Notes under the pieces: generated by a model | Databases searched by the model: none | The model's input: only the letters and a program-made list of their open reading frames with translations | What the model was told of the DNA's origin: nothing | In this document: in pieces, positions 6,971 through 62,830 of the stretch | How the letters are laid out: the number at the start of each line of letters is the position of its first letter | Numbering within the stretch: the stretch's first letter is position 1 | Source: Ianthella basta | Taxonomy: Eukaryota; Porifera; Demospongiae; Verongiida; Ianthellidae | Direction of reading: 5' to 3' | Assembly (NCBI GenBank): GCA_964019415.1 | Contig: OZ025877.1 | Location: forward strand, 4,767,742 to 4,831,741 | DNA length: 64,000 bases | Program-made: the position numbers and the translations under genes

Positions 6971-7267
6971 TGTAGTGACCAAGTAGTTAGTAGTCACTGC
7001 TGTTGATTGCTGGTTATTATCATTATTATTATTATTATGCTATTATTACGGTTGTGTTCTGTAGTGCAATGTATTAGTGATCATTATTCTTACGTATGTT
7101 GTACTATTATTGGTATCTGCATGGTTACGTAGTTGTACCCGGTTGTATTGTGCCTTTGTCCCATTGTTCATTGATTGTCTTGCTGAGCGGATCGCTGTGA
7201 CAAGTGCGGTGCATGAGCGTGGCCCGACCGACTGTTCCAGAAGTGTAAGAGCGTGCAGAACATCACA
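6971..7267 (+). repeat. 5' LTR of Gypsy element 1
   Basis: 297 bp starting tgtagtgacc and ending acatcaca. Contains an (att)n stretch near 7019-7035. Differs from the 3' LTR at three sites seen by eye (near 7013, 7081 and 7222). Confidence 0.95.
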
Positions 7268-7288
7268 TTTGGCGACGAAGGAAAGTCC
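7268..7288 (+). promoter_or_regulatory. candidate primer-binding site
   Basis: Directly after the 5' LTR lies tttggcgacgaagg. The second Gypsy element also has tggcgacgaagg just after its 5' LTR (56787 on). A motif shared at that position in two different elements is best read as the tRNA primer-binding site. I did not identify the tRNA. Confidence 0.6.
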
Positions 7289-7300
7289 GACGCGGGAGAG

Positions 7301-10300
7301 ATGACCACACACGGCCAGATCAGCGAGTTCCACGGAGTCCCGGAGGAATGGACCTCATACGTGGAACGCCTGGAGTGTTACTTCTTGGCCAACGATGTGG
7401 CCGACGCAGAGAAGCAACGCGCGATCCTGCTGAGTTGCTGTGGCGCCTCCACGTACAGCTTGATCCGGAGTCTGGCCACGCCAAGCAAGCCCACAGCCGT
7501 CGCGTACAAGGACTTAGTAGAGAAAGTCACCGCGTACTATGCTCCCAGAAGATCCAAGATTGTTTCGCGATTCAAGTTTAACTCGCGCTCACAACAGCCC
7601 GGTGAGTCTATCGCAACGTATGTGTCTGAGTTACGGAAACTTTCCGAATTTTGTGAATATGGTGCTACATTAGATGATATGCTATGTGACCGACTTGTGT
7701 GTGGCCTTGCTGAACGATGGGTTCAGCAGCGCCTCCTCGCGGAAGGGGATCTCACATTTGACAAAGCCCTGAAGATCGCCCAGGCCATGGAACTGGCAGA
7801 ACGAGATGCCAGGGACCTCCAGCAAGCCGGTGCACACAGGAATGTACCAGTTCATAGGGTAGCCCAGCCACCTAGGACTGCCAGACAGGACAAGGATGGT
7901 AAACCTTGCCACCGTTGTGGAGGGAGTCACGACCCATCCCAGTGCCGCTTTAGGGATGCGCAGTGTCACGCTTGTGGAAAGAAGGGCCACATTAAGCGGG
8001 CATGCAGAAGCCAGAGCAAGGTCCCCAGTGCTACCGGTGGTGAGCAACCCCAGAGGCAAGCTGTCCACCTAGCCAAAGAGGACACTGTCACTACACCGCC
8101 AGAGCTGCAGGAATACACTTTGTACCCACTCCACGATCTAGCCACACGACCCCTGAAGGCCACGGTGGAGGTAGAGGACCAGGAGCTCATCATGGAAGTA
8201 GACACTGGTGCCTCAGTTACCGTCATCAGTGAGGCCACGCTGGGAAGCATCTGGCCAAAACAACCTGCCCCACCACTCCAACCAACTGCCGTGAAACTGC
8301 GAACATACACCGGGGAGGCAATCCCAGTGGTTGGAAGGTTGATGGTCAAGGTGCAATACCAGGGCCAAGAGGAGCAACTTCCCCTCGTTGCCGTTGCTGG
8401 AGATGGGCCCAGCCTGTTGGGTAGAGACTGGCTTGCTAAGTTGAAGCTGGAATGGAAGCACATGTTCCGCGTGCATGCCCAGGAGAGTCTGCAGGATGTC
8501 CTGGAACGACACGACATGGTGTTCAAGCCAGAGTTGGGCAGGATCAAAGGAGTTGAAGCAAAGCGTCACATCAACCCTGAGGCCCAACCACGTTTCTACA
8601 AGTCGAGATCAGTACCATATGCTCTTCGCCAGAAAGTGGAACAGGAGCTGGACAGACTGGAGGAAGCCGGAGTCATTGTCCCCACCCAGCACTCGGACTG
8701 GGCAGCTCCTATTGTTCCGGTTGTGAAGTCTAATGGCTCAGTGAGGATTTGCAGAGACTATAAACTGACAGCCAACACGGCAACGAAGACTGAGTCCTAC
8801 CCTTTACCCAGAATTGAAGACTTGTTTGCATCCCTTGCCGGAGGTAAGGTGTTCTCCAAGCTTGACCTGTCCCATGCTTACTTGCAGCTGCCACTGGCTG
8901 AAGAATCACAACCCTTACTGACAGTCAACACCCACAAGGGGCTCTACCGTTACTTGAGGCTCCCCTTCGGAGTTTCTTCAGCACCAGCCATCTTCCAGCG
9001 TACCATGGAGACCTTACTACAAGGCGTGCAACATGTATGTGTGTACCTTGATGACATCCTCATCACCGGTTGTTCTCAGCAGGAGCACCTGAAGAACCTG
9101 GAGGAGGTCTTGCAGCGGTTGGAAGAGGCAGGAATGCGACTGAAGCAGGAGAAGTGTACCTTCCTCATGCCCGAAGTGGAGTACCTGGGGCACAAGATCA
9201 GCCCGGAGGGCCTGCAGCCAACTGAGTCCAAGGTGCGTGCCGTAGCAGATGCCCCCGAGCCGAAGAAAGTGACAGAATTGAGATCGTTCCTGGGTCTAGT
9301 GAACTATTATGGCAAGTTCTTACCCAACCTCGCCTCCACGGCAGCACCCTTGTATAACCTGCTGAAGAAGAATGCCCGCTGGACATGGGGCAAGACCCAA
9401 AAGGCGGCATTCAAGGGGGTGAAGGAGTTGCTACACTCGTCGGACATGCTAGTCCACTTTGACCCGGAGGAACAGCTCATCTTGGCATGTGATGCCTCGC
9501 CCTATGGACTAGGAGCCGCGCTATCCCATCGCATGCAAGATGGCTCTGAAAGGCCAATAGCTTTTGCATCCCGTACCCTTGCCCCAGCGGAAAAGAAGTA
9601 CTCACAGCTTGACAAGGAAGCATTGTCCATCATCTTTGGAGTCAAGAGATTCCACCAGTACTTGTACGGCCGCCAGTTCATCATCCACTCAGACCACAAG
9701 CCACTCATGTACATCTTCGATGAGTCAAAGGCAGTGCCACTCATGGCATCTGCAAGGATCCAGCGATGGGCTCTCACTCTCAGTGCCTACACTTACACCA
9801 TCCAGTACAAGGCCGGGAAGGATCATGCCAATGCTGATGGCCTCAGTCGACTTCCCCTGGAGGATGCCCCACCTGAAGTGCCAAGACCAGCTGAGACAAT
9901 TCTCCTTATGGATCATCTTGCAGCTTCACCAGTGTCGGCTAGCCACATTCGACAACAGACAGACAATGACCCTACCCTGTCAAAGGTTAGGAGTTTCGTC
10001 CAGCATGGTTGGCCTGATGTATTACCAGATACCAGTGACATGCAACCATACCATCACCGAAGACTTGACTTGAGCATTGAAGATGGCTGCCTGTTAAGGG
10101 GAAGCAGAGTGGTGGTGCCTCCCAAATTGCACAATAGAGTGGTAGACGAACTACACGAAGGCCATCCAGGCATTGCCAAGATGAAGGCACTGGCCCATCA
10201 ATATGTGTGGTGGCCGGGCCTGGATGGAGATCTAGAAGAGAGGGTGAAGCAATGCACCCCATGTCAGGAATGCCGTAAGAATCCACCAGCGGCACCACTC

Positions 10301-11050
10301 CACCCGTGGGAATGGCCAGAGCAACCGTGGAGGAGAGTGCATGCAGATTACGCTGGCCCTTACTTAGGACACATGTTCCTCATACTCATTGATGCACATT
10401 CCAAGTGGATGGAGGTACACATGACGAGGTCATCCACATCACTCGTGACCATCGAGAAAATGAGAAGCTCCTTTGCGACATTAGGGCTACCAGAACAGCT
10501 GGTAACTGACAATGGCCCTAGCTTCACCAGTGGGGAGTTTCGCCAGTTCATGAGGAACAATGGAGTACACCACATCACGACATCCCCCTACCATCCATCA
10601 TCAAATGGATTAGCCGAGAGGGCTGTCCAGACGTTTAAGTCAGGTATGAAGAAGCTGACTGAAGGAACCCTGGAGACCCGGTTGATTCGGTTTCTATTCC
10701 ACTATCGGACCACACCCCATGCCACAACAGGTCAGTCCCCAGCAGAGCTGATGTTAGGAAGACAGCTCAGGACACGCCTGGACCTGCTCAAGCCAGACAT
10801 CGGCAAAAGAGTAAGAGCACACCAGGAGCAGCAGAAGAGAGCACACGATGCTCATTCCAAACCAAGGGGGTTCCAGCCTGGAGTGCAGGTCTACGCCAAG
10901 AACTTTGGTCAAGGGCTTCCATGGCTACCTGGGGTCATCCAGGATTTGAAGGGTCCTGTGTCTTACACCATTGAGCTCCAAGATGGTCGTGTTGTTCGAC
11001 GACATGTGGATCATGAGAGCTCGCACAGCTACAGTCCAACCATCGGTTGA
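7301..11050 (+). CDS. Ty3/Gypsy Gag-Pol polyprotein
   Basis: One open frame of about 1,249 residues from ATG 7301; the frame is open upstream into the LTR, but 7301 is the first ATG after the LTR and primer site. Order by rough residue: Gag with two zinc knuckles (203-235, CHRCGGSH and CHACGKKGH), aspartic protease (DTGAS near 300), reverse transcriptase (YLDD near 582), RNase H (CDAS near 729), integrase HHCC zinc finger (about 949-990, CTPCQEC) and integrase core with Asp near 1013 (HADYAG), Asp near 1068 (VTDNG) and Glu near 1105 (LAERA). A basic chromo-region-like tail follows. All catalytic motifs are present with no stop or frameshift. Gag and Pol share one frame, so no programmed frameshift is needed. 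Confidence 0.95.
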   Translation: MTTHGQISEFHGVPEEWTSYVERLECYFLANDVADAEKQRAILLSCCGASTYSLIRSLATPSKPTAVAYKDLVEKVTAYYAPRRSKIVSRFKFNSRSQQPGESIATYVSELRKLSEFCEYGATLDDMLCDRLVCGLAERWVQQRLLAEGDLTFDKALKIAQAMELAERDARDLQQAGAHRNVPVHRVAQPPRTARQDKDGKPCHRCGGSHDPSQCRFRDAQCHACGKKGHIKRACRSQSKVPSATGGEQPQRQAVHLAKEDTVTTPPELQEYTLYPLHDLATRPLKATVEVEDQELIMEVDTGASVTVISEATLGSIWPKQPAPPLQPTAVKLRTYTGEAIPVVGRLMVKVQYQGQEEQLPLVAVAGDGPSLLGRDWLAKLKLEWKHMFRVHAQESLQDVLERHDMVFKPELGRIKGVEAKRHINPEAQPRFYKSRSVPYALRQKVEQELDRLEEAGVIVPTQHSDWAAPIVPVVKSNGSVRICRDYKLTANTATKTESYPLPRIEDLFASLAGGKVFSKLDLSHAYLQLPLAEESQPLLTVNTHKGLYRYLRLPFGVSSAPAIFQRTMETLLQGVQHVCVYLDDILITGCSQQEHLKNLEEVLQRLEEAGMRLKQEKCTFLMPEVEYLGHKISPEGLQPTESKVRAVADAPEPKKVTELRSFLGLVNYYGKFLPNLASTAAPLYNLLKKNARWTWGKTQKAAFKGVKELLHSSDMLVHFDPEEQLILACDASPYGLGAALSHRMQDGSERPIAFASRTLAPAEKKYSQLDKEALSIIFGVKRFHQYLYGRQFIIHSDHKPLMYIFDESKAVPLMASARIQRWALTLSAYTYTIQYKAGKDHANADGLSRLPLEDAPPEVPRPAETILLMDHLAASPVSASHIRQQTDNDPTLSKVRSFVQHGWPDVLPDTSDMQPYHHRRLDLSIEDGCLLRGSRVVVPPKLHNRVVDELHEGHPGIAKMKALAHQYVWWPGLDGDLEERVKQCTPCQECRKNPPAAPLHPWEWPEQPWRRVHADYAGPYLGHMFLILIDAHSKWMEVHMTRSSTSLVTIEKMRSSFATLGLPEQLVTDNGPSFTSGEFRQFMRNNGVHHITTSPYHPSSNGLAERAVQTFKSGMKKLTEGTLETRLIRFLFHYRTTPHATTGQSPAELMLGRQLRTRLDLLKPDIGKRVRAHQEQQKRAHDAHSKPRGFQPGVQVYAKNFGQGLPWLPGVIQDLKGPVSYTIELQDGRVVRRHVDHESSHSYSPTIG

Positions 11051-15585: not shown

Positions 15586-16007
15586 TAGTCTCGTTCCCAG
15601 CCCCCCCCCCCCAAAAGGTGGTCTGGCACATTTGCTCGATATTCTGATTAATTAAAAACTTTCGGTAAGTTGCGTCACATGCATGCAAGAAGCACAAGGA
15701 TTGGGGCGCTTGCTAGAATCGTCTCAAGGGGCGGTAACGGACATTGAGAAACTGTACCAGGCCACCCTTCAAAATTGTGAAAGCGGTAACATTGGGTACA
15801 GTTTGATTTCATTTGATAGAATGCCTAAATATGACTCACGTAGGTGAGCGAATGAAGCTACTAAATTGCGTATCGCAACACATGGAGGCGCTTGCCAAGA
15901 TTTTGGCAAGCGCCCCAAGGGCGGTATCAAAATAACGAGCAAATGTGCCAGACCACCTTTCGGGCCATTGCAAAATGGCGGCCGGAAGTGGGCTGGGGAC
16001 GAGACTA
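15586..16007. mobile_element. non-autonomous TIR element, 422 bp, 9-bp TSD
   Basis: Starts tagtctcgttcccag and ends ctggggacgagacta, with 9-bp TSDs gtctggtca (15577-15585 and 16008-16016). The interior includes the palindrome ggcgcttgccaagattttggcaagcgcc-like stretch near 15885-15920 and a homopolymer C run near 15601. It encodes nothing. 18500-19402 is a second copy in the opposite orientation. Confidence 0.9.
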
Positions 16008-16243
16008 GTCTGGTCATAGCGTAGTCTCATCCCCAGCCCACTTCCGGCCGCCATTTTGCAATGGCCCGAAAAGGTGGTCTGGCGACTATGGTCGACTTTC
16101 TTGGGCCCGGAAGTCCATTCCCAGCAGGAATGTGTGCTGGCCAATCAGATTACACAACAGCTCATTAGTGGCATGTTATGCATAACATTCACACCTCTGG
16201 CGTTCACACATTCCTAGCAGCATAGATCTATGCTAGCAGCGAG

Positions 16244-16501
16244 ATGGCAGCTTCGATGGGAGAAGTGAGCTTCCCAGGATTAGGCGCAAGGCTACCTTCG
16301 GCCGCAGTGAACAGTGTTATTCTGGAAGCATACGTAATACCCGGCTACGAGAAGCCCACAGATCAGGAAGAGGCGATTTTGGACTTCTTAAAGGGACGCG
16401 ACGTCTTCGTTTTCCTCCCAACAGGGACGGGCAAGTCTCTCTGCTTCGCCACTCTTCCCTCCGCCTTGCTGCCTTTCTCCAGCTTGGAAAAGCAGGTTTG
16501 A
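16244..16501 (+). pseudogene. RecQ-like helicase N-terminus, truncated
   Basis: The ATG at 16244 opens an 85-codon frame. The helicase-like part is 16244-16450, with GYEKPTDQEEAILDFL as a Q-motif-like region and LPTGTGKS as Walker A, followed by LCFA. After 16450 the frame runs into the antisense of the zinc-finger gene, so the remaining residues are not helicase. Only the first ATP-binding motif is present; domains II-VI are missing, so it cannot be an active helicase. The 54831-55039 copy breaks at the same residue. Confidence 0.7.
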
Positions 16502-16738
16502 CACACGTACTGGTTACTACTTTCAGTTTCTGCAATTCGAAGCCCGACCGTACACTTGGCAAAGGCGAAAACCTTAGGGCTACTCTCTATTCGCCTGCAA
16601 AAAGAAGGATTTGCCACGCTGCAGAAACACACAGCACAGCGTGGCACTTCCATCTTGCCCGTACAAATTTCACACCTCGCTGTTCCCACCAGTGTTACGT
16701 AATCAGAACTGGCTTCCAGGTCCAAGAAAGTCGACCAT
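16451..16738 (-). pseudogene. Cys-rich zinc-finger protein, truncated
   Basis: From ATG 16738 (inside the TIR) the minus frame reads cysteine pairs CEIC, CAVC and CQTC, with a basic helix after the last pair, then passes into antisense helicase sequence. Same protein as the one encoded at 54379-54927, but an internal deletion of about 170 bp removes the acidic middle. The paired cysteines suggest a zinc-binding DNA-binding domain. I cannot name the family. Confidence 0.6.
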
Positions 16739-16944
16739 AGTCGCCAGACCACCTTTTCGGGCCATTGCAAAATGGCGGCCGGAAGTGGGCTGGGGACGAG
16801 ACTAGTCATAGCGATAATGGAATTCGGAATTTCCCTCCACTATCTATGGTCTGGTATCTTTGGGGTTGGCTCGCCTCGACGCATCGCGAATACTTTTGGC
16901 CAATCAGATCGCCGCTTGATCACGTGCTTACGAAATCACGCGTG

Positions 16945-18499: not shown

Positions 18500-19402
18500 T
18501 AGCCTCGTCCCCAGCCCACTTCCGGCCGCCATTTTGCAATAGCCCGAAAGCACGGCTGTTTCGCCGGGGTAACTTAGTTGTTACGCAACATTTTTGCATT
18601 CGAAAAATGGCGTCTTTTTCCCTATGCTAGCAATGTATAACGGATCTCATTCCTCCGAGTTTTTCGGAATAAACGGCTTGGTGCATCTTATTGCTGGTAA
18701 TTGTTTAGGTATTTTGGTATTAGTCTAATCTTACTCCTTATTTTTCCTGCAGTTTTGAGGAATGTATGTGCGTAATGGACATTTAGTATTAAATATACAC
18801 ATGTTTACAATATAAAACATACCGGTCCTGGAAACCTGCAGAAAAAAAGGAGTAAGATGGGACCTACACCGAAACGTCTATAATAATACCAACGATCAAA
18901 TGCTGTATATCATTTCTCTAGGAAAACCCGGAGGAGTGATATCTTTATACATGGCTAGCATACGGCAATGGGCGCCATTTTGCAATTGCGCAAGAATTAC
19001 TAAGTTGTACACGCGGGATACAAGTGAAACAGCCGTGAAAGGTGGTCTGGGTTGCTCGTTATTTTGATACCGCCCTTGGGGCGCTTGCCAAAATCTTGGC
19101 AAGCGCCTCCATGTCTTGCGATACGCAATTTAGCAGCTTCATTCGCTCACCTACGTGAGTCATATGTAAGTATTCTATCAAATGAGATCAATATGTACCC
19201 AATTTTACGGCTTTCACAATTTTGAACGGTGGCCTGGTACAGTTTCTCAAAGTCCGTTACCGCCCCTTGAGGCGATTCTAGCAAGCGCCCCAATCATTGT
19301 GCTTCTTGCATGCATGTGACGCAACATACCGAAAGTTTTTAATTAATCAGAATATCGAGCAAATGTGCCAGACCACCTTTTGGGGGGCTGGGAACGAGAC
19401 TA
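18500..19402. mobile_element. second copy of the 422-bp TIR element, inverted and interrupted
   Basis: Starts tagcctcgtccccagcccac and ends gctgggaacgagacta. 9-bp TSDs gaccctctt at 18491-18499 and 19403-19411. Without the nested 18551-19037 insertion it is about 412 bp and is the reverse complement of 15586-16007, including the aagcgcc palindrome. It landed in a further repeat whose end reads gaccctctttcgcctttccctg (19403 on). Confidence 0.9.
18551..19037. mobile_element. 487-bp TIR element nested in the previous one
   Basis: Begins cacggctgtttc and ends gaaacagccgtg, with long imperfect arms (about 110 bp, including tatgctagc.atgtataa on both sides). Flanked by aaag on both sides (18547-18550 and 19038-19041), a 4-bp TSD. 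Inner arms share atcttactcctt and ctgcag. No coding. The ends and the 4-bp TSD differ from the surrounding TAGTCTC group, so this is a different family. Confidence 0.8.
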
Positions 19403-19610: not shown

Positions 19611-22600
19611 ATGAGATTCAGCGCCAAATGCGTGATTGCTGTGGCCGTGATCTGTTTTTGGCGTATGGGGTGCGCCCAGGACATTTGTCAGAAAGATTCA
19701 AGCTGTGAGCACAACCTGGCAGCCGATTGCACGGGAGACTGTGTAAGACGTAAGTGTTCCAAGCCATATGTCTATGTATTATTGTCTGTTTCTAATGACA
19801 GGGCCGTAGCACCCAGTCCGGCCGGTCCGGCCATGGCTGGACCGGCCATGGCTGGACCGGTTTTTGCTGCTGGAACAAAAATTCTAAATATTGAAGATAT
19901 GCACTTTAAACACACTTTGAAATTGGGGGGGGGGTACTGGCCTAAGGTTAAACAACGTTCTAAAAGCAGAGTGATCTTGTTACAGACTTAGTTTGAACAA
20001 GGAATAGCCAGATACTTAGTCCTCTACCAACCTTAACGGCGGCAGCCATTTTACGGATGGACGCATGACGTTTTATGACGCGCTAAAGTGGTGTGTTAAT
20101 CGATCGCCGCGCAAAATTGCGTTGATGGTGTCTTCTTTAGTCAAGAGGAGAGATTTGTGCTGCCTAGCATCGGAGAGACAGCTAACAAACCACTAGATTT
20201 TGATTTTTAATGCGCTATCTTCTTATTTCAATGCATTGTATTACCTGTTTCATATGGCACTTGATCGCCTTTCCTGCTGTAAGTGCTTGTTGGTCTATAT
20301 TACATTTTATCATACTCATTGGAGTGTTGGTTGCCTAGAATTGCTCTAAAAGTACTCACAACATCTAGATTTCAAAAATTATCCCTGGGGGGGGGGGGGG
20401 GGGCATGCCCCCAGACCCCCCTAGTTTGTGGCACGTCATCTATGGCCTGACCGGTTTTTATGTTGGTGCTACGGCCCTGAATGAAAATGTAAATGACTTC
20501 ATTTACTACTTACAATTGCCTGACATGATCTTTCTATTCCGCCATTCACGGATCTGCTTTACTGCTGCCTTACTTACCTTCCTCTGCAGTGATCAAGAGT
20601 GATCAGTTAACTTTAAGATTCAGCAGAAGCGAAGGAAGCAATGTGACAACTACTATAGACATTGTTAGACACATGCCGGCAAGCCCCGTTTTTTTTATTG
20701 AAGTTTTATTCAACCAAAGTCGGGTACCTGATGAAACGTTCACATGTCCAGAAGATCACCTCCTCCATATTCAGATGAATGGGACTGTGCTTGGCCGCAT
20801 ATCCTTTCCTAACAGTTCCAATTGCAGCAAGGCAGTGATTTACTTCACCCCTCCACCAACACTAGGCATACGGCTGTCACTCTTCGTAAACAATGGTGGA
20901 AGCATGGTAGCTTTTGGTCCTTTCTACATAGGGCAAGAAAGTGAGTTAAGTTAGTCCGTCCTGTCAATGCAGTGCAAGTTGCAATACATATGTATTTTAT
21001 ACTTGCTTAATTATGATTGGTACATGTACATTTTTGAGGTGCCAAAGGCGCCTCTATACAGTGAATCCGAACCCAAATGCCACAAACATTTTGTTCGGAT
21101 AAGTGAACTTACAAACAACTACAACATTAATTATACAAATACACATGCATGCTTTCATACATACATTTTCTTTTGTAGCAAATCTAGTAAGATTCTCTGC
21201 TTTAGGCGGCGGTCACACTACGGCGAAAGTGACGGCGACGGTGACGGTGACGTCACGTTTTTGCGGTCACACTACGAATAACTTACCGGGACCGCGACCG
21301 TGACCCTGCCGTACCGTGACCGTCGCCGTGACAGCGGTCGCCACGGTGACGGTGACGGCGACGATAGAGGCGAAGGTGTGAACCGTGTTCTGTGAGCGAT
21401 CTAGCGAACGATGGCGTCTGGAAGCAAGAAAACGAGAGCCAAATGGACACCTGACATCGAACGAAGACTGATCGACATCTGGGCCGACATCATAGAGGAG
21501 TTTAGTGGCAAAATGATAACGCGGAAGAAGAAAGAAGCAATTGCAACGATGAGACTGAACGCCTACTTGACGGAGGAGCTGGGGAGGACGAATGTGTACA
21601 CTGAAAAGGCGATCTGCAATAAAATTGACACAATTCTGAAGAACGGAAAGAAGATGTATGCCACTTACCAGAAAAAAGGAGAAACTGGCAAAGAGTATAC
21701 TGAAGAGGATGCAGAAATAGACCTCGAAGCAGCTGAGAGTAGCTGGCCTAACTTCAAAACATTCCATGAGCGCTTTAAAGACCATCCATCTTTGGGCCCT
21801 GGGGCAGTCGACGACTCCGTGACTCCCACTCCCAGTACTATTGCAAGGTCTGTAGCTGGTGATGAACCTGAAGTTACTGGCACTGCTACCAGTACCCCTG
21901 ATGTTTCAAGGCCCCCATCCAGGAGTGTGGTAGACAGTGATAGTGAAGAGGATGAAGATGACATTCCACTGCCACCTAGTAAGAAGAAAAAGGGAGATGA
22001 GACACCCACTGTTGCCAGAGTGGGACAGAAGAAAGGGAAAGGGACTGCAGCCACCCAGTTCTTGCTGGCATTGTCAGACATGCAGGAGAAAGCACAGGAA
22101 AGGCAGATGGCACATGATGCAAAAATGCAGGAGGATGCAATGAAGTTCCAGCTGAAAATGGAAGCAGACAGGGCAAAATTGGAAGCTGACATATCAGCAA
22201 GGCTGCAGCAGCAAAACGCACAATTTCAAATGGACATGATGCAGCAGAATCAAGCATTTCAAGCTGAGCTCTTGAAAAAACTGTTTGAAAAGAAGGACAA
22301 TCAGTGAGCATGAGTTAATACTTTGATTGTTTACTCCCTACTATATTGGTGCACACTTGTATTGCATCATTAGCGAGCGCATCCATGTTGTATTTCATCT
22401 ACAAAATTACTGGCAGATCCATGTACCATTGTCAATTATTATTCTGTGACAAGTACAACTACAGTTCACTAATAATTAAAACAGCTGTTCGAATCAGTGT
22501 GGAGCAGGCCTGTGGCGATGGATGTATTTGGCAATTGCATCCCTGACACTTGCTGCTGATCCAATCACCACATGTGCTTGTAAATTGGCTGGTATGGTGT

Positions 22601-25600
22601 CTGCATAAGCACTAGCATCTGGAAGCCATCCTAGTTCAAATGGGCACTGGTGCCTTTCACATACATTGTGCAAAGCACAGCAGACCATCGCCACCTGCCT
22701 CACAAACACTGGGTCATTGATTTTACATTGGCCGTCCATAATTTTCCACCGTCCTTTGAGCCTACCAAATGCTTGCTCGACAACGCGTCTTGTTCGGATC
22801 AAGCTGTAGTTAAAGCTGTGCTTTTGGGGCAAATCACTTGCTTCGTAGCACTTCATGCATGTTGCAGACAATGGAAATGCTGCATCAGCAACAAGAAACG
22901 GACTCACTTGCACACCTTCAATTGTTTTTGGTGAGTGTGCAAGCCAATCACCGCTACGGATCTTCTGCCATAAGGTACTGTGACGATAAGTGTACGAGTC
23001 TCCAACAGAGCCAGGTCGACCCGCATTAACATAAGTGAATATACCCCTAGCATCAACACATCCTAGTACAATAATGGCGCAGAAGCGTTTGTAACAAAAA
23101 TAGGTGTCTCCATAATTTGTTGGCTTCCTGATGGGCATGAAAGTGCCATCCAGCGCACCACCACAACAAGGCAAACCACACAGCGCCTCAAAATCTACCA
23201 TGACTTGATCTAGTTCTGATCCAGTGGGAAAACGGATGGCCTCAGGTACAAACTTTGCACGAAGTACATCTACACCCTGGTGTACCACAGCAACAACTGT
23301 GGACTTCCCAATCGCATACAATGCAGCAAGTTGAGCAAAACTACTAGCTTGAGCTAGCCAATGTAACACAATGGCTAGTCTCTTTGCATGAGGCAGTGCT
23401 AGCCTTAGATGCGTGGTTTCCTTCTTCAAGTATTTGCCATACGTCTGGGACAGATACCAGAAAGTATCCTTAGACATGCGGAAATGCTGTAGGTATTGGC
23501 TCTCCTCCCAGTCCGGATATCTTCGTCCCATCCTTCGCCACATGTCGCAAACATCTTCTTCCCAAAAACCATGGTCTCTTGGCGCTGCCCAAAATCGTCG
23601 TGGAGCCCGAAGAGAACGGATGATATCCTGGAAAGCGGGCTGAGCCAAGAGTGACGGCACAAAAAGCAGCCGTAACAGCGATTCCCGACTTTTCCGCAAG
23701 CAGCGCTGGCGAAGAAGAGTAAATAGGGTCCTGCGAAGTCGATTCCTGCAATGAGCATAGCCGCCGCCAAGCTGAAACAAGGAAAAAAGGTAAATGCACA
23801 CGAGCACGATGTCCGCCATTTTCTCTTTGTCTATACAAATAATCTTTCGGTAATAGTAGCAGTGTGACCGACCCGCCACGTTCCGGAAACGTCACCGTAA
23901 CCGCCGCCGTCACCGTCGCCGTCATTTTCGCCGTAGTGTGACCGCCGCCTTAGGGAGTCTCCTCGCTTACGGACTGTGAGGGCATGAATGTTCTCTCAAC
24001 GTGTATGTGTTGTATTGATTTACTTTAGGCTGCTATCGCTTTTGGCGCAAAAACTACGGAAGAGAATGCCACCACACTCTAAAGGATTATAAAGTGGGGC
24101 TCCAGAAGTGTTCTCCTCAGGTTGAAATTGCCTGTCTGGCAGTTCCTGAAGAAATATTCTTCAATTCCAGTTTTTCGTTCGCCACTGACAGCCATTTTAT
24201 GGATTATCGCTCATTGACTTCCGGTTATTGGGCGGTTTAATTCGCTGTCGTCCAACGTTCGAAGCTAACTCGACCGTCATTATAGTAGCTACCCTCCATT
24301 GCTAACAGCACAGATCCTTCAAATCAGCCTGGGCCCGACTCGCCGAAGCAAAAGCCCGCTAAAGCAGGCCCCCTGCTAGTAATTGCATAATCCATGTGTC
24401 ACGTGCAAGGTAATTTTGTGATCCGGATAATCGAGGTTCGGATAACCAAGGATTCACTGTATTGTTTTCAGATTTAGCTACTTGTATGGCTCATGTTCAT
24501 AATGATGTATATATTATATTTCTCTCATTGCAAATGGCGGCGCCTGCATCTTTCTTTGCAAAGCCTAAAATCATCTCAATTTTCATTTCACTATCTCTCA
24601 ATGGAACAAAATGTGTTCATGAACATGTGTTAATAGAGTGTTAGCTGTAAAAAGCTTAACGAAAGACTCTTCTGCGAGATACAGCTCCAATTATTACGGA
24701 CAGACATTGTAAAATAGATGCGCTCAATGCAGTATCTGTTAGACTCAAAATCATCTTTTTTTGTATTTTGCCATGTATCCAAAGAACGCAAAGACTTTCT
24801 AGAACACTCTTAAGTAATAGTATTGTAGTAGAAAGCTTCCCTAACTATTCTCCTGCGCTGTACAGCCCCAAATAAAGCGGAGGTCGAACGACCTGTTGGC
24901 CTATGAGAGACAATCGAATCATGGCATTACCAACTTGGGTAGCCTTATTAGCCAGCACACTCCTCCAGGTACAAAGTAACATGTACATCCTCATTCAGAA
25001 TGTTATGTAGATCAAAAAGCACCAGCAAAGCATTTTGACAGTTTGGTAGGGGTGCGTTCTCTGGATGACGTGCTGGTCTGGGGTCTTGAAACTCTTGCAT
25101 CCCCATCAGTCTATGGCATTGTGATGTATCTTTCTGGCCATCAGCAATGCTTCATCCCCAACTATCTGAGCTGTTGAACATACACAGGGAAGTTACTAGC
25201 AAGTAGTTCGTGTTCAGGGGCGCCGGGGTGCCCCTGAACTCGAACTACCTGGTCCCACAAGCTTTTTTTAACTTGAAATACTTGTTGTTGCAGGAATCAG
25301 GTTATGTGAGGCAGCTGCCAACACCACTGGAAGCAGAGTGACTGCATGGTTCACGAACATCACCAATTGCCAGGACCATATGCCTCCTCATGATGTAATG
25401 TTCTCGTATGGGATGAACAACCTAACTTGGTGGATGAATGGAACTATATCTGAGTCCCAGTGTTTCTCTGTTGAAACATTCTCCTGTAAAACCAGCAATG
25501 TCATGAAGTTTGAGTTGTTTTTGGATCACAGAACCTGTCCGATCACAGTGAACTCCTTGCTTAGGGCAGGATTTGTAGGTGGTATACAAATGGACAACTG

Positions 25601-30486: not shown

Positions 30487-33400
30487 CATGGGCGTAGGAA
30501 GACTTTCAAAACTGGGGGGGGGGGGCGAAGATATTGGAAGAGATAGAATTTTTTCAGGGTAATTAAATTTTATAGGGTTTTGGTGTGAACCCCACAAACT
30601 CCCCCTATTTACATGCCTGCATACTCCCCGTTTCAATTTCAATAACAGCTATGATGCCATGAAACATACATATTATGCAAAAATAGCCAGTCCCATGTTA
30701 TAAAACAAAACTAATGCATGCAATCTTTCAAAATTCACCAAAATAGAACCTGCGCCTATCATTGGTAGATATAAAATTCCTAGCAATGTCTAACATGTCC
30801 AACTGATGGGTCCTTTCTTTATGGATGTGAAGGATTGTTACATGATTCAGTCAAGGTTGAGACATAGTGGATCGAAGGAATGTTTTTAGACATCGAAGCA
30901 CAGAAAAGGTCCTTTCTGCTGTAGCTGTGGTAACTGGAATGGTAAGAACAATTTGCAGCAAACGGGCGACCTCATCAAGCATCACTTTGCTGCTTGGCAT
31001 AGCATTCAGAATGTCACTGAATGTTCTGAGACTGGTAACTTCTTTCAATGAGCGGTCAGGGTGGGCTGCATTGAATGTACGGATGAGATCTGGTACCATC
31101 TTCAGCTGAACTGTCAGTTTACGCAAGTCAACATCTTGGCTATATATCTCTAACTCACTAGGAAGAGAGATATCTGCCGCAGACAATCGAGTAGCACATA
31201 GGAGGAGATTCTCCAAAGCAGCAGCTACAGGAAGCCCCCTATCATGCTGGAATCTGTGGCGAAGTTCACCAGCAACTGTGTCCAAAACCTCGAAATATAG
31301 CTGACGAAAGTAGTGCTTTGGGCTAGTGAATATATTGGCTTGATGTCTTCGGTTTCGAGGTAGTGCAGGTGGATACGTTAGATCTTTGCTTTCATCTACC
31401 ACTCGGTGGTAAAATGAATCAAAAGCTTCATCAGATCTTTGCCTTTGTATGTATTGTAGTGCAAGGTTTGAGGCCTGTATAGCTTCCTGAATTGTGGTAT
31501 CTTTTGCCTGTAGGTTCAAAGACAGCTGTTCAGTGGCTGAAAAAATCAAGTGACCTAGTTTGAGACCAAAGTAGGTGCTAAATTTCTCCATAGAATTGAG
31601 ATAGCCAACTGCCTTGAGCGCATATTCATCTGTACCTTGTTGAACGTCATCCAAAGCAGCTTGCAGTACAGAGTAGTTGGTGACAACAGAATCTATAGCT
31701 GCAGTACGTACTGTCCATCGGGTTGGACAGAGGGGCTTTAACGTACGTTGGATTACCGGGTGCAAACTGTTGCTGCAGGCCCTCAAATAAATTAGATCTT
31801 TTCGGAGAAATCGAATGAGCTAAGTGAGGCCCATCACCAGTTCTAGGGACTCCCGAATGCACAGTAGCTTCTTTGCTGTGGTCTGAAGGCACAGGTTAGT
31901 GCAATGTGCTAAACAGTGCACATAGATTGCCTTCGGCTCTGCCTGCTGAATGATAGCAGCAACACCACAAATATGGCCCTTCATGTTTGCAGCACCATCG
32001 TATGCTTGTCCGTGGCACTGAGAATTGGGTAGTGCAAGACGTAACATACAATCTTTTATTTGGCCAGCCAGTGTATCTGCGTCAGTCTTTGGTACATGCA
32101 TCAACTCCACTGGAGTTTCGTGAATTAGCATGGCACTGTCTACCCACCTGATAGCTACGCAGAGTTGCTCATTTTGGCTCACATCAGTGGCCTTGTCTAC
32201 AATGATGGAGAACATGGACGATTCCCTAATCTCCGCAAGGAGCTGCCGCAACACTGTATTGCTCATTCGAGCAATCAGCTCGTTCAAGATTTGTGGTGAA
32301 AGATACTGCTTATCATCTATATACTGCTTCAAACCAGGAATGGTTTCAGATCGCACAAGTAGTAGTTGGATCAGGTTGCTTTCCAAATCAATGTGTCCTC
32401 TTACAGCTAAACCTTGTCTAAGTAAGAATCTCAAGGATGAAAGAGTGACCATCAGCATTTGTCTTCGCACTTGCTGGTCCTTTTGCAGCTGAGTGCTCAG
32501 CAGTGCTGCCACGCTCAGACATTGGAGAGAGTCGATCTTGATTACAGCTTCTCTGTGCATGGCCGATTTCACATGGTGATCAAACCGATCCAAGGCTTTC
32601 TTCCAGTTATCGAAACCCGTGACAATAAATGCGACGTCGCCTTGCTTGTCCATTAATATTTCCTGCTTATCACAGATTCACAATATCGACAAAAATTGCA
32701 GAAAGCTTTCAGCCTCGTTATACAAAGCACTAGCCATGGACGACCCTTAAACCATTCAGCGCAAAATTGTCGTGCGTGACCTTGAACTTTTCTGGTCTTC
32801 TGCAAAATAGCTTGATCACTAACTTGGAATGATTCAACTGCATCCCTGCAGCAAGGGTGCATTACACTCAGCAGCGCCTGATGATGGCTCTTCTGCAAGG
32901 TCATCTTGATCTCTTGTAACAGGCAAGGACACTGAATCTTGCGCTGAATGGGACATTCCGGGTGGCTGAGAATCCAAAACAGTTACATCTTCTCCTGTGG
33001 CTCCTCCAGGCTCCAAATCAGCACATGTGCTTTCTTCACTTTCTACAGGGCCATGCCTAGTTGGAATATACAGTTCAAGTCATTTAGCAGCTGGTTTAAC
33101 CAGAAGCTAATTCATGTAGCTAGCTACTATATTCATTCATACTTTCCATCTACTTCTCTGCTACACTATGATGGGTTGACATTCCACTGACAGAGGATTC
33201 TGACCTTGAATCATTGTCCAAACCAGTGACAGTACTGTGGCTTGAAGACTCCGAGTCACAGGTACTATAGTACCGAGAGATTACCAATAAAGCCATACAC
33301 AGCTTGTCACTACTGACTAATCACCTTGGGACTTAAGCCTACCTGTTGGTAACATTGCTTTTTCTTCTCTTTGGTGGCTTTTCCAAAAAACTTAGGATAG

Positions 33401-54171: not shown

Positions 54172-54278
54172 TAGTCTCATCCCAAGCCCACTTCCGGCCG
54201 CCATTTTGCAATGGCCCGAAAAGGTGCTTTTTGGGCCATTGCAAAATGGCGGCTGGAAGTGGGCTGGGAACAAGACTA
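54172..54278. mobile_element. 107-bp TAGTCTC-group MITE, 10-bp TSD
   Basis: tagtctcatcccaagcccac to aagtgggctgggaacaagacta, almost wholly two inverted TIRs. TSD accacacacc at 54162-54171 and 54279-54288. The minimal form of the group. Confidence 0.85.
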
Positions 54279-54378
54279 ACCACACACCGGTTTAACATTT
54301 CATTAGGTTTCATTAGTCTCGTCCCCAGCCCACTTCCGGCCGCCATTTGCAATGGCCCGAAAAGGTGGTCTGGCGACT

Positions 54379-54927
54379 ATGGTTGACTTTCTTGGGCCTG
54401 GAAGCCAGTTCGATTACGTAACTCTGGTGGGAACAGCAAGGTGTGGAATTTGTACGGGCAAGATGGAGGTGCCACGCTGTGCTGTGTGTTCCTGCAGTGT
54501 GGCAAATCCTTCTTTTCGCAGTCCAATAGAGAGTAGCCCCCAGGTTCTTGCCTTTGCTAAGGTTACGATCGGGCTTCGACTTGCAGAAACTGAAAGTAGT
54601 AACCAGTACGTGTGTCAAACGTGCTTTTCCAAGCTGGAGAAAGGCAGCAAGGCAGAGGGGACACTCCGATCTACTGTTCAAGACATTCTACATTGTGCTG
54701 GACATCCGCATGACGTTTCTGTCTCAATCAGGAGCATAAGCTGCGATCAAGGTACCCAAACACAAACGGATTGCGAGGAAGAGCAGTGGGACAGTGACCG
54801 CCGAAGGTTGTCAAAGATGAAAGGAAGACTGGCGAAGCAGAGAGACTTGCCCGCCCCTGTTGGGAAGGAAATGAAGACGTCGCGTCCATTTAGAAGTCCA
54901 AAATCGCCTCTTCCTGATCTCCTGTAG
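54379..54927 (+). CDS. Cys-rich zinc-finger protein of the TIR element (C-terminus replaced)
   Basis: ATG 54379 lies in the TIR; open for 182 codons. Cysteine pairs CGIC (near 30), CAVC (near 42) and CQTC (near 85), then a Lys-rich helix, further single Cys/His and an acidic segment to about residue 148. Beyond about 54830 the frame reads antisense helicase, so the native C-terminus is missing. Paired cysteines suggest one or two zinc sites for DNA binding. I cannot name the family. This is the fuller of the two copies. Confidence 0.6.
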   Translation: MVDFLGPGSQFDYVTLVGTARCGICTGKMEVPRCAVCSCSVANPSFRSPIESSPQVLAFAKVTIGLRLAETESSNQYVCQTCFSKLEKGSKAEGTLRSTVQDILHCAGHPHDVSVSIRSISCDQGTQTQTDCEEEQWDSDRRRLSKMKGRLAKQRDLPAPVGKEMKTSRPFRSPKSPLPDLL

Positions 54928-55039
54928 GCTTCTCGTAGCCGAGCATTACGAATGCTGCCAGAATAGCACTGTTCACTGCGGCCAAAGGTAGCCTTGCGCC
55001 CAATCTTGGGATGCTCAATTCTCCCATCGAAGCTGCCAT
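54831..55039 (-). pseudogene. RecQ-like helicase N-terminus, broken
   Basis: From ATG 55039 on the minus strand: MAASMGELSIPRLGARLP, LGYEKPTGDQEEAILDF, then a stop at 54890-54892 caused by a small frame change. Past that, the Walker A region survives as a diverged G-GKSL-like stretch and ends at the join near 54831. Homologous to 16244-16450, with substitutions throughout. Confidence 0.65.
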
Positions 55040-55270
55040 CTCGCTGCTAGCATAGATCTATGCTGCTAGGTAGGTGTGAACGCCAGAGGTGTGAATGTTA
55101 TGCATAACATGCCACTAATGAGCTGTTGTGTAATCTGATTGGCCAGCACACATTCCTGCTGGGAATGGACTTCCGGGCCCAAGAAAGTCAACCATAGTCG
55201 CCAGACCACTTTTTCAGGCCATTGCAAAATGGCAGCCGGAAGTGGGCTGGGGTCGAAACTAAGGTTTCAT

Positions 55271-56784: not shown

Positions 56785-56818
56785 CTGGCGACGAAGGTAA
56801 AGCACCTTGTCAGCCAAG

Positions 56819-59317
56819 ATGACAGCAGCAACCTTCCCAGAATTCGATGATTCCAAAGAGGACTGGTTGTCATACACCGAGCGGATGCAGCAGTACTTCG
56901 TGGCTAACGCAGTCAGTGAAGATCGACAAAGAGCCACACTGCTCAGCACATGCGAACCCGTTACCTATCAACTGATAAAGGACTTAATAGCCCCGGAGAA
57001 ACCTACTACGAAGACATTCGAAGAGCTTGTTCAGTTGGTGAATGCACACAAGAACCCGCTGCCTTCAATGATTGTGCAACGTTTTCATTTCCACTCCAGG
57101 TCGCAAATGGAAACAGAAACCATTCCCCAGTATGTTGCAATCCTCAGACGACTGTCGACGCACTGCAACTTTGGAAATTCCTTAGACATGCTGCGGGATC
57201 GGCTGGTGTGTGGACTGCGGGATACAGCACTACAGAGGAGACTACTGTCAGAGAAAGACCTCACTTTTCAACGTGCCTTTGATATTTGCCAGGCCCATGA
57301 AGTGGCTGCAAGAGACACCCTTAATCTGCAGACAAATCGGGAAGAATCAGTCAGAGTGAAATCGGAGATGCCGGAGTCAGGTTCCATTGATAAGATGCAA
57401 GGTCTTCCAGCCAGTGAGATGTGTTTCAAGTGTGGACGCTCCCACCGACCAAGGGATTGTCCATTCAAGAATGCTGAGTGTTTTTCTTGTGGAAAGCGAG
57501 GTCACTTGGCTAAGGTTTGTCGGAGTAAGTTGAGGAACACCCCAAAGCACACTAATGTTGTGGATGGCGGGGAAGATTTGTCTGAAAGCACACACATGCT
57601 CTTCAATTTACCCAGTCGCAGGGTCCCTCCAATTGTTCTCCGTGTAGCTGTGAATGGCCAAGAAGTATCCATGGAGTTGGACACTGGTGCGTCAGTGTCA
57701 CTCATCACAGATAGAGTGTGGAAAGAGATGGTGGCACCCCGTCCAGTTTTGCGCCCTTCGGTCATCAAGCTCCGCACCTACACAGGGGAGACAATCGACT
57801 GTCTGGGAGAAATCTCAGTGAGTGTAGGCTACAACCAACAGCAGCACAATTGTAGAATGGTGGTGGTGAAGGGCGAGGGACCGTGTCTGCTGGGAAGAGA
57901 CTGGCTCCAACACTTTCAAGTACCCTGGCAAGACGTGCTCCACACAATGGCACACAATCCATCAAAAGCCAGCCTCAACTTGGAGGAAGTGGTGGGTAAG
58001 TACCCGAGCTTGTTCCGTGATGAACTGGGGAAAGCCTCACAGCATGAAGCACAGCTCAACGTTCCAGCTGATACCAAGCCAACCTTCTTGAAAGCACGTC
58101 CTGTACCTTATGCGCTGCAGGAGAAGACTGAGCAGGAGTTGCAGAGGTTGCAGGAGCTGGGGGTGATTGTGCCGGTGGAAAGCTCAGAATTGGCTGCTCC
58201 AGTGGTTCCTGTAGTGAAATCAGATGGGAGTGTTCGCATTTGTGGTGACTTCCGTCTAACAGTCAACAAGGTGGCAACTACCAATGTGTACCCCCTGCCT
58301 AGGATAGAAGACCTCTTCGCATCACTGAAAGGTGGGCAGGAGTTTACTAAACTTGATGTGGCTCATGCATACCTTCAGATTCCCCTAGCCGAGGCATCCC
58401 AGAAGTATGTAACCATCAACACACATAGGGGGTTGTTCAAGTATACACGACTACCGTTTGGCGTTTCTGCAGCACCAGCTATCTTTCAGTGCACTATGGA
58501 GAGCATCTTGCAGGGGATTCCTGGGGTTGCAGTCTACATTGACGACATTCTAGTCACGGGCAGAAGTCGAGAAGATCACCTATCCACCCTGGATACGGTC
58601 CTGGGGCGATTGGAAGCAGCAGGATTGTGTCTCAAGAGGAACAAATGTATATTTCTTGCTCCTTCTGTAGAGTACCTGGGCCATGTGATCTCTGCCAAGG
58701 GCTTACAACCATCTGAAGAGAAGGTGCGTGCCATTCGAGAGGCACCAGACCCAACCAATGCCAGCCAGTTGAGGTCATTCCTGGGCATGATTGCCTACTA
58801 CACAAAGTTCATTCCGAATTTGGCCAGTATGCTGTCCCCTCTCTATTTGCTCTTGCAAAAGGGCAAGACTTGGAGATGGGGAGATGCTCAGAGGGCAGCA
58901 TTTGAGAAGGCCAAGAGTGCACTCACATCAACGACAGTACTGGCGCATTATGATCCTGGGAAAGAACTTGTCTTGGCCTGTGATGCATCTCCGTATGGGA
59001 TTGGCGCAGTCCTCTCGCATCCATCAGAAGACGGAACACAGCACAGACCAATTGCTTTCGCAAGCTGCACATTGGCACCAGCAGAAAGGAACTATTCACA
59101 GTTGGAGAGAGAAGGCCTGGCGCTGGTGTATGGAGTGAAGAGATTCCACCAGTTCCTCTATGGCAGACGATTCACTGTCATATCAGACCACAAGCCACTG
59201 GAAGGCATCTTCCACAGTTCTCGGCAGTTGTCATCCATGGCGACTGCCCGAATCCAGAGAGCTGAGAACACATCTGGACATGGTAAAGCCCAACATTGCC
59301 CAGAAAGTGAAAGCTAA
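56819..59317 (+). pseudogene. Gypsy Gag-Pol with integrase deleted
   Basis: From ATG 56819: Gag, two zinc knuckles (CFKCGRSHRPRDC and CFSCGKRGHLAKVC), protease ELDTGAS, reverse transcriptase VYIDDILVTG, and RNase H start (CDASPYGIGA). The frame reaches ATARIQR and then, at about 59258, jumps to HLDMVKP out of frame and stops at 59317. Compared with Gypsy element 1, the end of RNase H, the HHCC finger and the whole DDE core are missing. A second frame, to 59701, carries the far C-terminus (HVDQVKRSYMED, Pro/Ser-rich tail). One clean deletion explains it. Confidence 0.88.
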
Positions 59318-60679: not shown

Positions 60680-62830
60680 ATGGCTGCGAGTGGTCTTCTT
60701 CCAAGCTATCAAGAGTCAATAAAAAGTGTCGAAGACAAGAAGAGGTACTTGGAAAAATTGGCGTTCATCGGCGGCGACGATCCGTACTCAATTCCCACGG
60801 AAGAGTGGCAGGACGATGTGGACAGCTGGCCAGCCATTACCTACATTCATGTAGGATTGTATCTTTTGTTCACTCCGAGTCCGTACACGAAAGAAGATCT
60901 TGAAAACTACAAGAGTATGGACAGTTATGAGAGATTCCTCGCTGGCTGGGTTAGAGAAGTGCTCGTGAGAAGATGCTCTGGAGACATTGTGTTAATGGTG
61001 GCAAAGGTGAGCTATACACCAGCTCAGTTGTGAAGATATGTGCAGAATTTTGATCCAGACACTGTCTACATTGCTGTCTACATTGCACATACGTAGGTGA
61101 ACCATTCACAGCGCCTGAATGAGAAGCCCCTTATCCCATGGGTACTTGCAGAAGCTGGAGGTAAAATAATTACAGCACACTGCAACTGCATGGCTGGCTT
61201 GGGTGAAACTTGCTCCCATGTAGCATCATTACTGTGGGCAATTGAGGCAGGTGTTCGCACAAGAGAATCATTAAGTGTGACCGATAAGAAGGCCTACTGG
61301 GTAATGCCACCTGAGGTGAAAAAAGCACACCCTGCTCGCATTTCTGAAATCAAGTTCAGTAAGCAACACAGAAGATCTGAATGTGATGCTGTGAGTAGCC
61401 AATCTGTACCACCTCCATCTGAAGATGAGCAGAGTAGGTTTATTTCAACCTTGGGCACCTGCAAAACAAAGCCTGCTATATGTTCATTAGTGGAGCCATT
61501 TGCAGAGATGTTCATACCGGTGAGCATGAAGGAAAATTTACCAGCACCTTTGGCTAACCTGTATAACCCAGACCTCTTGATCGAATCCTACTCCACACTT
61601 TTACAAGTTGCCTCAACGTACAAGCTGGAGAATCTCACCTTGTCTCAGGTGACTGCAGTGGAAGAAAAGACACGTGGACAGGCACAATCAAAACTCTGGT
61701 TTCAATTACGCAGTGGACGCATCACAGCCTCAAAGGTTCGAGCTGTTTGCCACACTGATCCGTCTTCCCCGTCAATCAGTTTGATAACCTCCATTTGTTA
61801 TCCTGAGTTGTCAAGATTCAAGAGTGCTGCCACCACCTGGGGATGTAAGCATGAAGCCAGAGCACGCACTGCATACTGTGAAAGGCAGCAGAAAAGCCAC
61901 GATGACTTTTTCGTAACTGAATGTGGCCTTTTCTTGCTCACTGAGCATCCATTCTGTAAGGCATCTCCTGATGGAGTCACCAACTGCACCTGTTGTGGAG
62001 AAGGTGTCTTGGAAGTAAAGGTAAGTATGCACTCAGGTTTAAGCTTAAATTTATCGGTTGTGCTTAGGGTTTATGCAGGTATAAATTAACTTATACACAA
62101 CAATGTATCATTCTACAGTGCCCATATTGTCATAAGGATGACTTGTTGGAAGACTCTACAGCAGATAAGAATTCTGCCTTGAGGTGACAGCTGCAAGTGG
62201 GTACCAACTAAAGAGGACACATCAGTACTATTACCAGGTAAATCTAAATCATTTTTGGGTGGTAATGATACAGCTGTGGTGCACTGCATGCATGCATGTC
62301 TATTCAGTATTTACAGCCATTGCGTGTTCAATCCGTAACCCCTCCTGTAGGTCCAATGGCAGCTGCTGTGTACTGACAAGGATTTCTGTGATTTTGTATT
62401 GTGGACGAATGAAGATCTGCATGTGGAACGCATATGGCCATCAGAAGAGTTCCAGACTGAATGTTTTGAGAAATGTCAATCGTTCTTTACCCTTGCCATC
62501 CTTCCTGAACTATTCGGGAAATTCTATTCTCGCCCTCCACAGCAGAAATCACACAGTAGTGAACAGCAGCCTACTTTAGATGCTAGCACTACTTCTGCAG
62601 AGCCTATGCCATCAATGGAGGGAACACAGTTCATCACAGAGGACAGTGACAGCTTTTGCTACTGTAATGGACCTGAATATGGCATCATGGTCGCTTGCGA
62701 TAATGCGAATTGTCCACATGGCAAGTGGTTCCACCTGGAATGTCTACAAATCAAGGCACCACCCCGCTCTCGCACATGGTACTGCCCTGACTGTAGGAGG
62801 CATGTACCAAAAAAGAAAAGAAAAGTGTAG
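60680..62830 (+). CDS. SWIM zinc finger, YqaJ nuclease and PHD finger protein, one frameshift
   Basis: Four exons: 60680-61006, 61097-62020, 62119-62237, 62351-62830, all with GT-AG sites and phase-0 joins. Start chosen at MAASGLLPSYQ; an upstream in-frame Met at 60620 exists. SWIM finger in exon 2 (CNCMAGLGETCSHV), then a YqaJ PD-(D/E)XK nuclease: SGRITASKVRAV, WGCKHEARARTAY, ASPDGV and VLEVK followed by CPYC, so all catalytic residues are kept. The last exon holds a PHD-type Cys/His finger (FCYCN to WYCPDC) and ends PKKKRKV. Exon 3 is one base short: frame one gives HKDDLLEDSTADKN, then FCLEVTAASGYQ in the next frame. So it is either a fresh pseudogene or a sequence error. Convergent with the transposase at 62941. 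Confidence 0.8.

Follow-up and report, generated by a model that had tools for sequence, protein, structure and literature searches.

Two short inverted-repeat elements of Ianthella basta as very probable deletion derivatives of an AcademH-type DNA transposon that pairs DUF6589 with a RecQ-type helicase

Helitrons possess neither terminal inverted repeats (TIRs) nor target-site duplications (TSDs) and encode a Rep/helicase protein. TIRs are a feature of Academ transposons, the AcademX lineage of which employs an XPG-like nuclease, and AcademH, a further lineage of the Academ superfamily, was reportedly described by Kojima in 2020 (Mob DNA 11:15), the title giving animals and fungi. One source assigns TSDs of 9 or 10 bp to AcademH and of 3 or 4 bp to AcademX, and ties this to the presence of a helicase versus a nuclease (PMC10045372); the Academ helicase is named as RecQ in a second (PMC3627910), and a third attributes a RecQ helicase to KolobokH, from fungi (PMC9587614). 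Since AcademH and KolobokH have already been described, the type of element considered here is not new, and the premise of a preliminary description of this locus, that known helicase-bearing elements are Helitrons, proved wrong or incomplete.

In the current work, two short elements were analyzed within a 64,000-nucleotide stretch of Ianthella basta DNA (this whole stretch being referred to as the window), and both very probably arose by internal deletion, as non-autonomous forms, from a DNA transposon of the AcademH type; the same genome contains at least four full-length copies of the latter. The boundaries assigned to both elements by the preliminary description were confirmed by inverted ends and exact 9-bp TSDs. 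Element 1 (positions 16022 to 16804, minus strand, 783 bp) is flanked by two copies of GTCATAGCG (16013 to 16021 and 16805 to 16813) and bounded by a TIR on the helicase side (16022 to 16113, plus strand) and one on the transposase side (16713 to 16804, minus strand). It contains the 5' part of exon 1 of a RecQ-like helicase gene (16244 to 16458, plus strand), with the Walker A motif, which had been noted in one of the elements as TGTGKS, in frame as LPTGTGKS, and a part of exon 1 of the DUF6589 gene, the presumed transposase gene, which encodes a Cys-rich N-terminus and reaches up to the deletion join (16459 to 16653, minus strand). Element 2 (54314 to 55261, plus strand, 948 bp) is flanked by two copies of AGGTTTCAT (54305 to 54313 and 55262 to 55270), with its transposase-side TIR at 54314 to 54404 (plus strand) and its helicase-side TIR at 55170 to 55261 (minus strand). 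It retains exon 1 of the presumed transposase gene up to the join (54463 to 54799, plus strand), again specifying the Cys-rich N-terminus and corresponding to the previously named zinc-finger ORF, and the 5' part of helicase exon 1 (54792 to 55039, minus strand), the frame of which is broken before Walker A. The two elements lie in opposite orientation and are 93% identical over most of their length, and their TIRs, the presence of which had been correctly recognized although their length had been given as about 85 bp, measure approximately 92 bp, with an identity of 96.7% in element 1 and 92.4% in element 2.

Direct repeats of 9 bp at exactly these two spacings occur at only five of 126,233 window positions, both elements included, and an exact 9-bp TSD was found for 20 of 23 elements (being 22 of the window TIR family together with L029; the misses are L007, L009 and L026). 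Considering this rare repeat spacing together with the inverted ends and the recurrence of exact TSDs, chance is no reasonable explanation. When the 20 TSDs are read on both strands, they lean to a palindromic GT....AC, the residue at position 2 being T and that at position 8 being A in 22 of 40 readings.

A larger parent had been predicted to exist elsewhere in the genome, to be sought as long intervals bounded by inverted copies of the TIR. Within the host genome (209 Mb on 96 contigs), the TIR query matched at 45 or more places, 40 of 443 candidates having been scored, and 20 stretches around TIR matches were taken for the parent search. This prediction was borne out by full-length copies of 5.9 to 6.1 kb which share these TIRs, show 9-bp TSDs and encode a complete RecQ helicase along with another large protein, the intervals between inverted TIRs being 5940 bp in both L010 and L011, 5893 bp in L014 and 6094 bp in L009. 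The parental TIRs are approximately 92 bp in length and start with TAGTCTCG, the full-length ends matching the TIR query at 90-99%, and the TSD is an exact 9 bp in three copies and agrees at 7 of 9 positions in L009. Two of the 5940 positions distinguish L010 from L011, and the parent looks to have been active in recent time. A genome-wide search for DUF6589 returned 58 matches (67 of 67 candidates scored), among which are rows inside all four full-length copies. Some other DUF6589 matches also have an exact TIR end within 4 kb, at C1:1074198, C1:8784474, C3:4511179, C3:9458300 and C5:5047110, and these five sites are possible further or decayed parents.

The parent carries two open genes which run inward from opposite TIRs and whose reading frames end approximately 25 bp from each other, and the DUF6589 and helicase genes are therefore convergent. 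The predicted model of the DUF6589 gene, starting from the left TIR, comprises seven exons separated by six introns, all being GT-AG, and specifies 1020 amino acids without a stop; its exon 1 encodes the Cys-rich N-terminus, and the Pfam DUF6589 matches are located in the last two exons (2.6e-9 and 7e-31). Therefore, the Cys-rich zinc-finger ORF, previously regarded as a gene of its own, is exon 1 of this presumed transposase gene. The predicted helicase gene, on the minus strand, starts from the right TIR, has two exons, encodes 560 amino acids and displays the motifs GAGKS, DEAH, TAT and QESGRCGRDG, with Pfam matches to DEAD (1.9e-19) and Helicase_C (4.7e-17). The helicase piece recognized beforehand in the short elements is thus real, and belongs to exon 1 of this two-exon RecQ gene. 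RecQ_Zn_bind stays below the cut-off in the window family (0.0077), as it does in L030, a further DUF6589 locus. In a PDB search with the helicase the top 38 rows were RecQ-type, headed by 1oyw (1.2e-43), which we take to be E. coli RecQ, followed by RECQ1, BLM, WRN, RECQ5 and RECQ4, with DEAD-box RNA helicases appearing only after these 38 rows. Both genes are open in all four full-length copies; the DUF6589 protein of L009 reaches 1087 amino acids because of an in-frame insertion, which sits in the exon 4 region. A profile scan was applied to seven parent ORFs, corresponding to exons 1, 3, 5, 6 and 7 of the DUF6589 gene (exons 2 and 4 being left out) and to both helicase exons, and only DUF6589, DEAD, ResIII and Helicase_C scored above the cut-off in these.

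When placed on the parent, element 1 corresponds to position 345 joined to position 5482, and element 2 to approximately position 485 joined to position 5451. The element 1 junction gave 39 genomic matches at up to 2 mismatches (the control giving 0), and the element 2 junction a single match at up to 3 mismatches. These distinct joins, together with the difference in the number of matches, indicate two independent internal deletions which kept both TIRs, the element 1 type having subsequently multiplied. Sixteen copies of the 783-bp type, a set from which L019 was excluded since it represents a different deletion and in which element 2 was treated apart, show a mean pairwise difference of 2.4% (120 pairs) and differ from the parent by approximately 5-6%, and thus derive from a parent that was older than the four full-length copies or differed somewhat from them.

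The DUF6589 protein is inferred to be a DDD/E transposase, in which the D of VGDNxDK, the D of GDQ[LV]T and the E of the Y..E motif would be the candidate acidic residues. The glutamate of Y..E is conserved in 120 of the 121 rows aligned (the exon 7 query and, among the matches listed, 120 of 163 relatives). A pattern search over five loci found the D2 and DWH motifs in five of five, Y..E in four and D1 in three; by eye, L011 reads NYANE at Y..E and L032 reads CVGDNIDK, making the latter a fourth locus with D1, and the D1 pattern was not found in L029. A fold search with a structure model of the C-terminal part of a relative, a part which lies outside D1 and D2, matched no transposase. Four further DUF6589 loci that were examined (L029 to L032) are situated on other contigs and each adjoins a RecQ-type helicase gene, so that, the window family included, all five loci examined in this genome show the pairing. 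In L029, L030 and L031 the two genes are convergent, as in the window family; in L032, on contig C6, the helicase is located downstream on the same strand as DUF6589, perhaps as a fused or tandem gene. RecQ_Zn_bind exceeds the cut-off in L031 and L032. L029 is bounded by 90-bp TIRs starting with TAGTCTGG and by an exact 9-bp TSD, GTGACCAGT; L030 holds a piece of the window-family TIR, and no pair of TIR ends was resolved at L030, L031 or L032 when paired ends were sought there.

Considering that the window alone shows only a helicase N-terminus, this piece could represent a host RECQ exon captured by an unrelated TIR element. Such a reading is hardly credible given that the complete helicase is present in all four full-length parents, that a helicase accompanies DUF6589 in the window family and at all four further loci, and that the element helicases fall apart from the host RecQ gene L033. 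The tree comprised 3 element helicases, 29 transposon-like rows (those above 430 aa among P0121-P0166, the label reflecting search rank and absence of an RQC domain rather than a view of each genome), 16 cellular RecQ rows (picked from P0167-P0240, with few animal members) and two of the three RQC-bearing loci of the host. In this quick tree, made without bootstrap, the element helicases and their transposon-like relatives split from the cellular RecQ rows with an SH-aLRT of 100; L033, which fills only 25% of the columns, was placed among the latter, and L034 sits on a long branch at an unsure place. Together, the intact parents and the tree argue strongly against a captured exon. Relatives of the helicase include proteins of Dysidea avara, Oculina patagonica, Branchiostoma and Ptychodera flava, all of which we take to be animals. 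A different RecQ-type gene, with an RQC match, occurs in similar copies at L034 (contig C21) and L035 (contig C5), the open frame of L035 continuing into a Cys-rich C-terminal region; this gene may represent another mobile carrier of RecQ.

TIRs of this length and 9-bp TSDs would suit a Mutator-like element (MULE) to which a helicase had been added, yet a MULE transposase domain is absent from the seven ORFs scanned, DUF6589 being present instead, and the recurrence of DUF6589 with a helicase at every locus examined makes such an origin very improbable. The remaining known systems were compared by feature. Helitrons share with the present element the carriage of a helicase, and are ruled out by its TIRs and TSDs and by the result that neither Rep nor PIF1 was matched in the seven ORFs. 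KolobokH and Kolobok-1_CCri are described as DDD/E transposons with a RecQ helicase, located on the complementary strand in Kolobok-1_CCri, but Kolobok TSDs are given as the 4-bp TTAA, whereas those found here are varied 9-bp sequences, and this group was rejected accordingly. AcademX, the sister lineage of AcademH within the Academ superfamily, is described as having a nuclease, no helicase and TSDs of 3-4 bp (PMC10045372), as opposed to the helicase and 9-bp TSDs found here; the three loci at which XPG_I was detected in the genome (7 of 7 candidates scored) lie away from the DUF6589 matches, and AcademX was likewise rejected.

The element agrees with AcademH in the features tested, namely the helicase (here a 560-aa RecQ-type protein, open in four of four copies), a TSD length of 9-10 bp (here 9 bp in 20 of 23 elements, and 10 bp in a 107-bp foldback) and the TIRs (here approximately 92 bp), the likeness being drawn by description and not letter by letter. 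For the transposase, the feature present here is DUF6589 with its conserved acidic motifs, and DUF6589 is likely to be the AcademH transposase as judged from architecture and TSD length rather than from sequence. The same reliance on description leaves some room for a superfamily of DUF6589 and RecQ which is separate from Academ and resembles AcademH only in TSD length and helicase, as does the result that the term DUF6589 had no match in the literature searched. A separate superfamily is nevertheless unlikely, since PMC10045372 describes AcademH with the same pair of a helicase and a 9-10 bp TSD, and AcademH is placed in animals and fungi by the title mentioned above. The interpretation offered by the preliminary description is, overall, partly supported, and neither of the two outcomes which it named as refuting was encountered; what is new here is DUF6589 as the likely AcademH transposase, the recent copies, and the clustering of insertions around ends of the element itself.

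Such clustering is apparent next to both window elements. A solo TIR piece (15947 to 16007, minus strand, TIR positions 62-1) is located 14 bp to the left of element 1, and the 107-bp foldback of two TIR pieces (54172 to 54278), flanked on both sides by ACCACACACC as its 10-bp TSD, is located 35 bp to the left of element 2; a further solo piece (TIR positions 1-50) occupies 18500 to 18549 on the plus strand. Outside the elements, 14 TIR-like clusters were found in 222,891 bases, and seven of these, more than expected, lie no farther than 100 bp from where an element ends. Six of 22 elements, including both in the window, have such a nearby cluster, the seventh being at L028, outside the 22. 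The pieces beyond the window are those of L009 (6217-6247), L011 (1975-2037), L019 (830-928), L025 (25-63) and L028 (9901-9966), and two of the seven are weak, that of L009 spanning 31 bases and that of L025 matching at 79% over 39. The 28-bp TIR core has 241 genomic matches at up to 1 mismatch, which makes chance proximity unlikely, in a test made after the pattern had been noticed. L011 abuts a TIR piece representing positions 1-63, of which positions 55-63 constitute the L011 TSD. One tentative and rather doubtful explanation is that a RecQ-assisted complex prefers its own hairpin-forming ends, or the adjacent DNA, as target, so that insertions pile up by earlier copies; the same clustering could result from re-insertion nearby or from abortive single-ended events. 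On C1, C4, C5 and C6, exact TIR ends were also observed in inverted pairs that span no more than 72-92 bp.

The window is rich in other mobile elements. Plus-strand frames at 7217-11047 and 56801-59314 show reverse transcriptase, RNase H and aspartyl protease, as in Ty3-like retrotransposons, the former frame also having an integrase match, and matches to DDE_Tnp_4 (presumably a Harbinger-like transposase), to hAT dimerisation plus DUF4371, and to YqaJ are located at 22497-23891 (minus strand), 30854-32677 (minus strand) and 61097-62086 (plus strand).

In the mechanism proposed for the AcademH-type parent, the DUF6589 transposase would cut at the TIRs and join them to the target with a 9-bp stagger, and the helicase may act as a helper, for example in end unwinding or strand opening, or in repair after excision. 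Deleted copies would arise by incomplete repair following excision, and their TIRs could still be mobilised in trans.

Although this is not a new class of element, two unexplained short repeats have become part of a nearly complete system, which comprises parents with open genes, derivatives that have a junction in common, and DUF6589 paired with RecQ at five of five loci. A likely function, that of a transposase, can thereby be proposed for DUF6589, a Pfam family of unknown function, and the recent copies provide material for testing the role of a RecQ helicase in cut-and-paste transposition.
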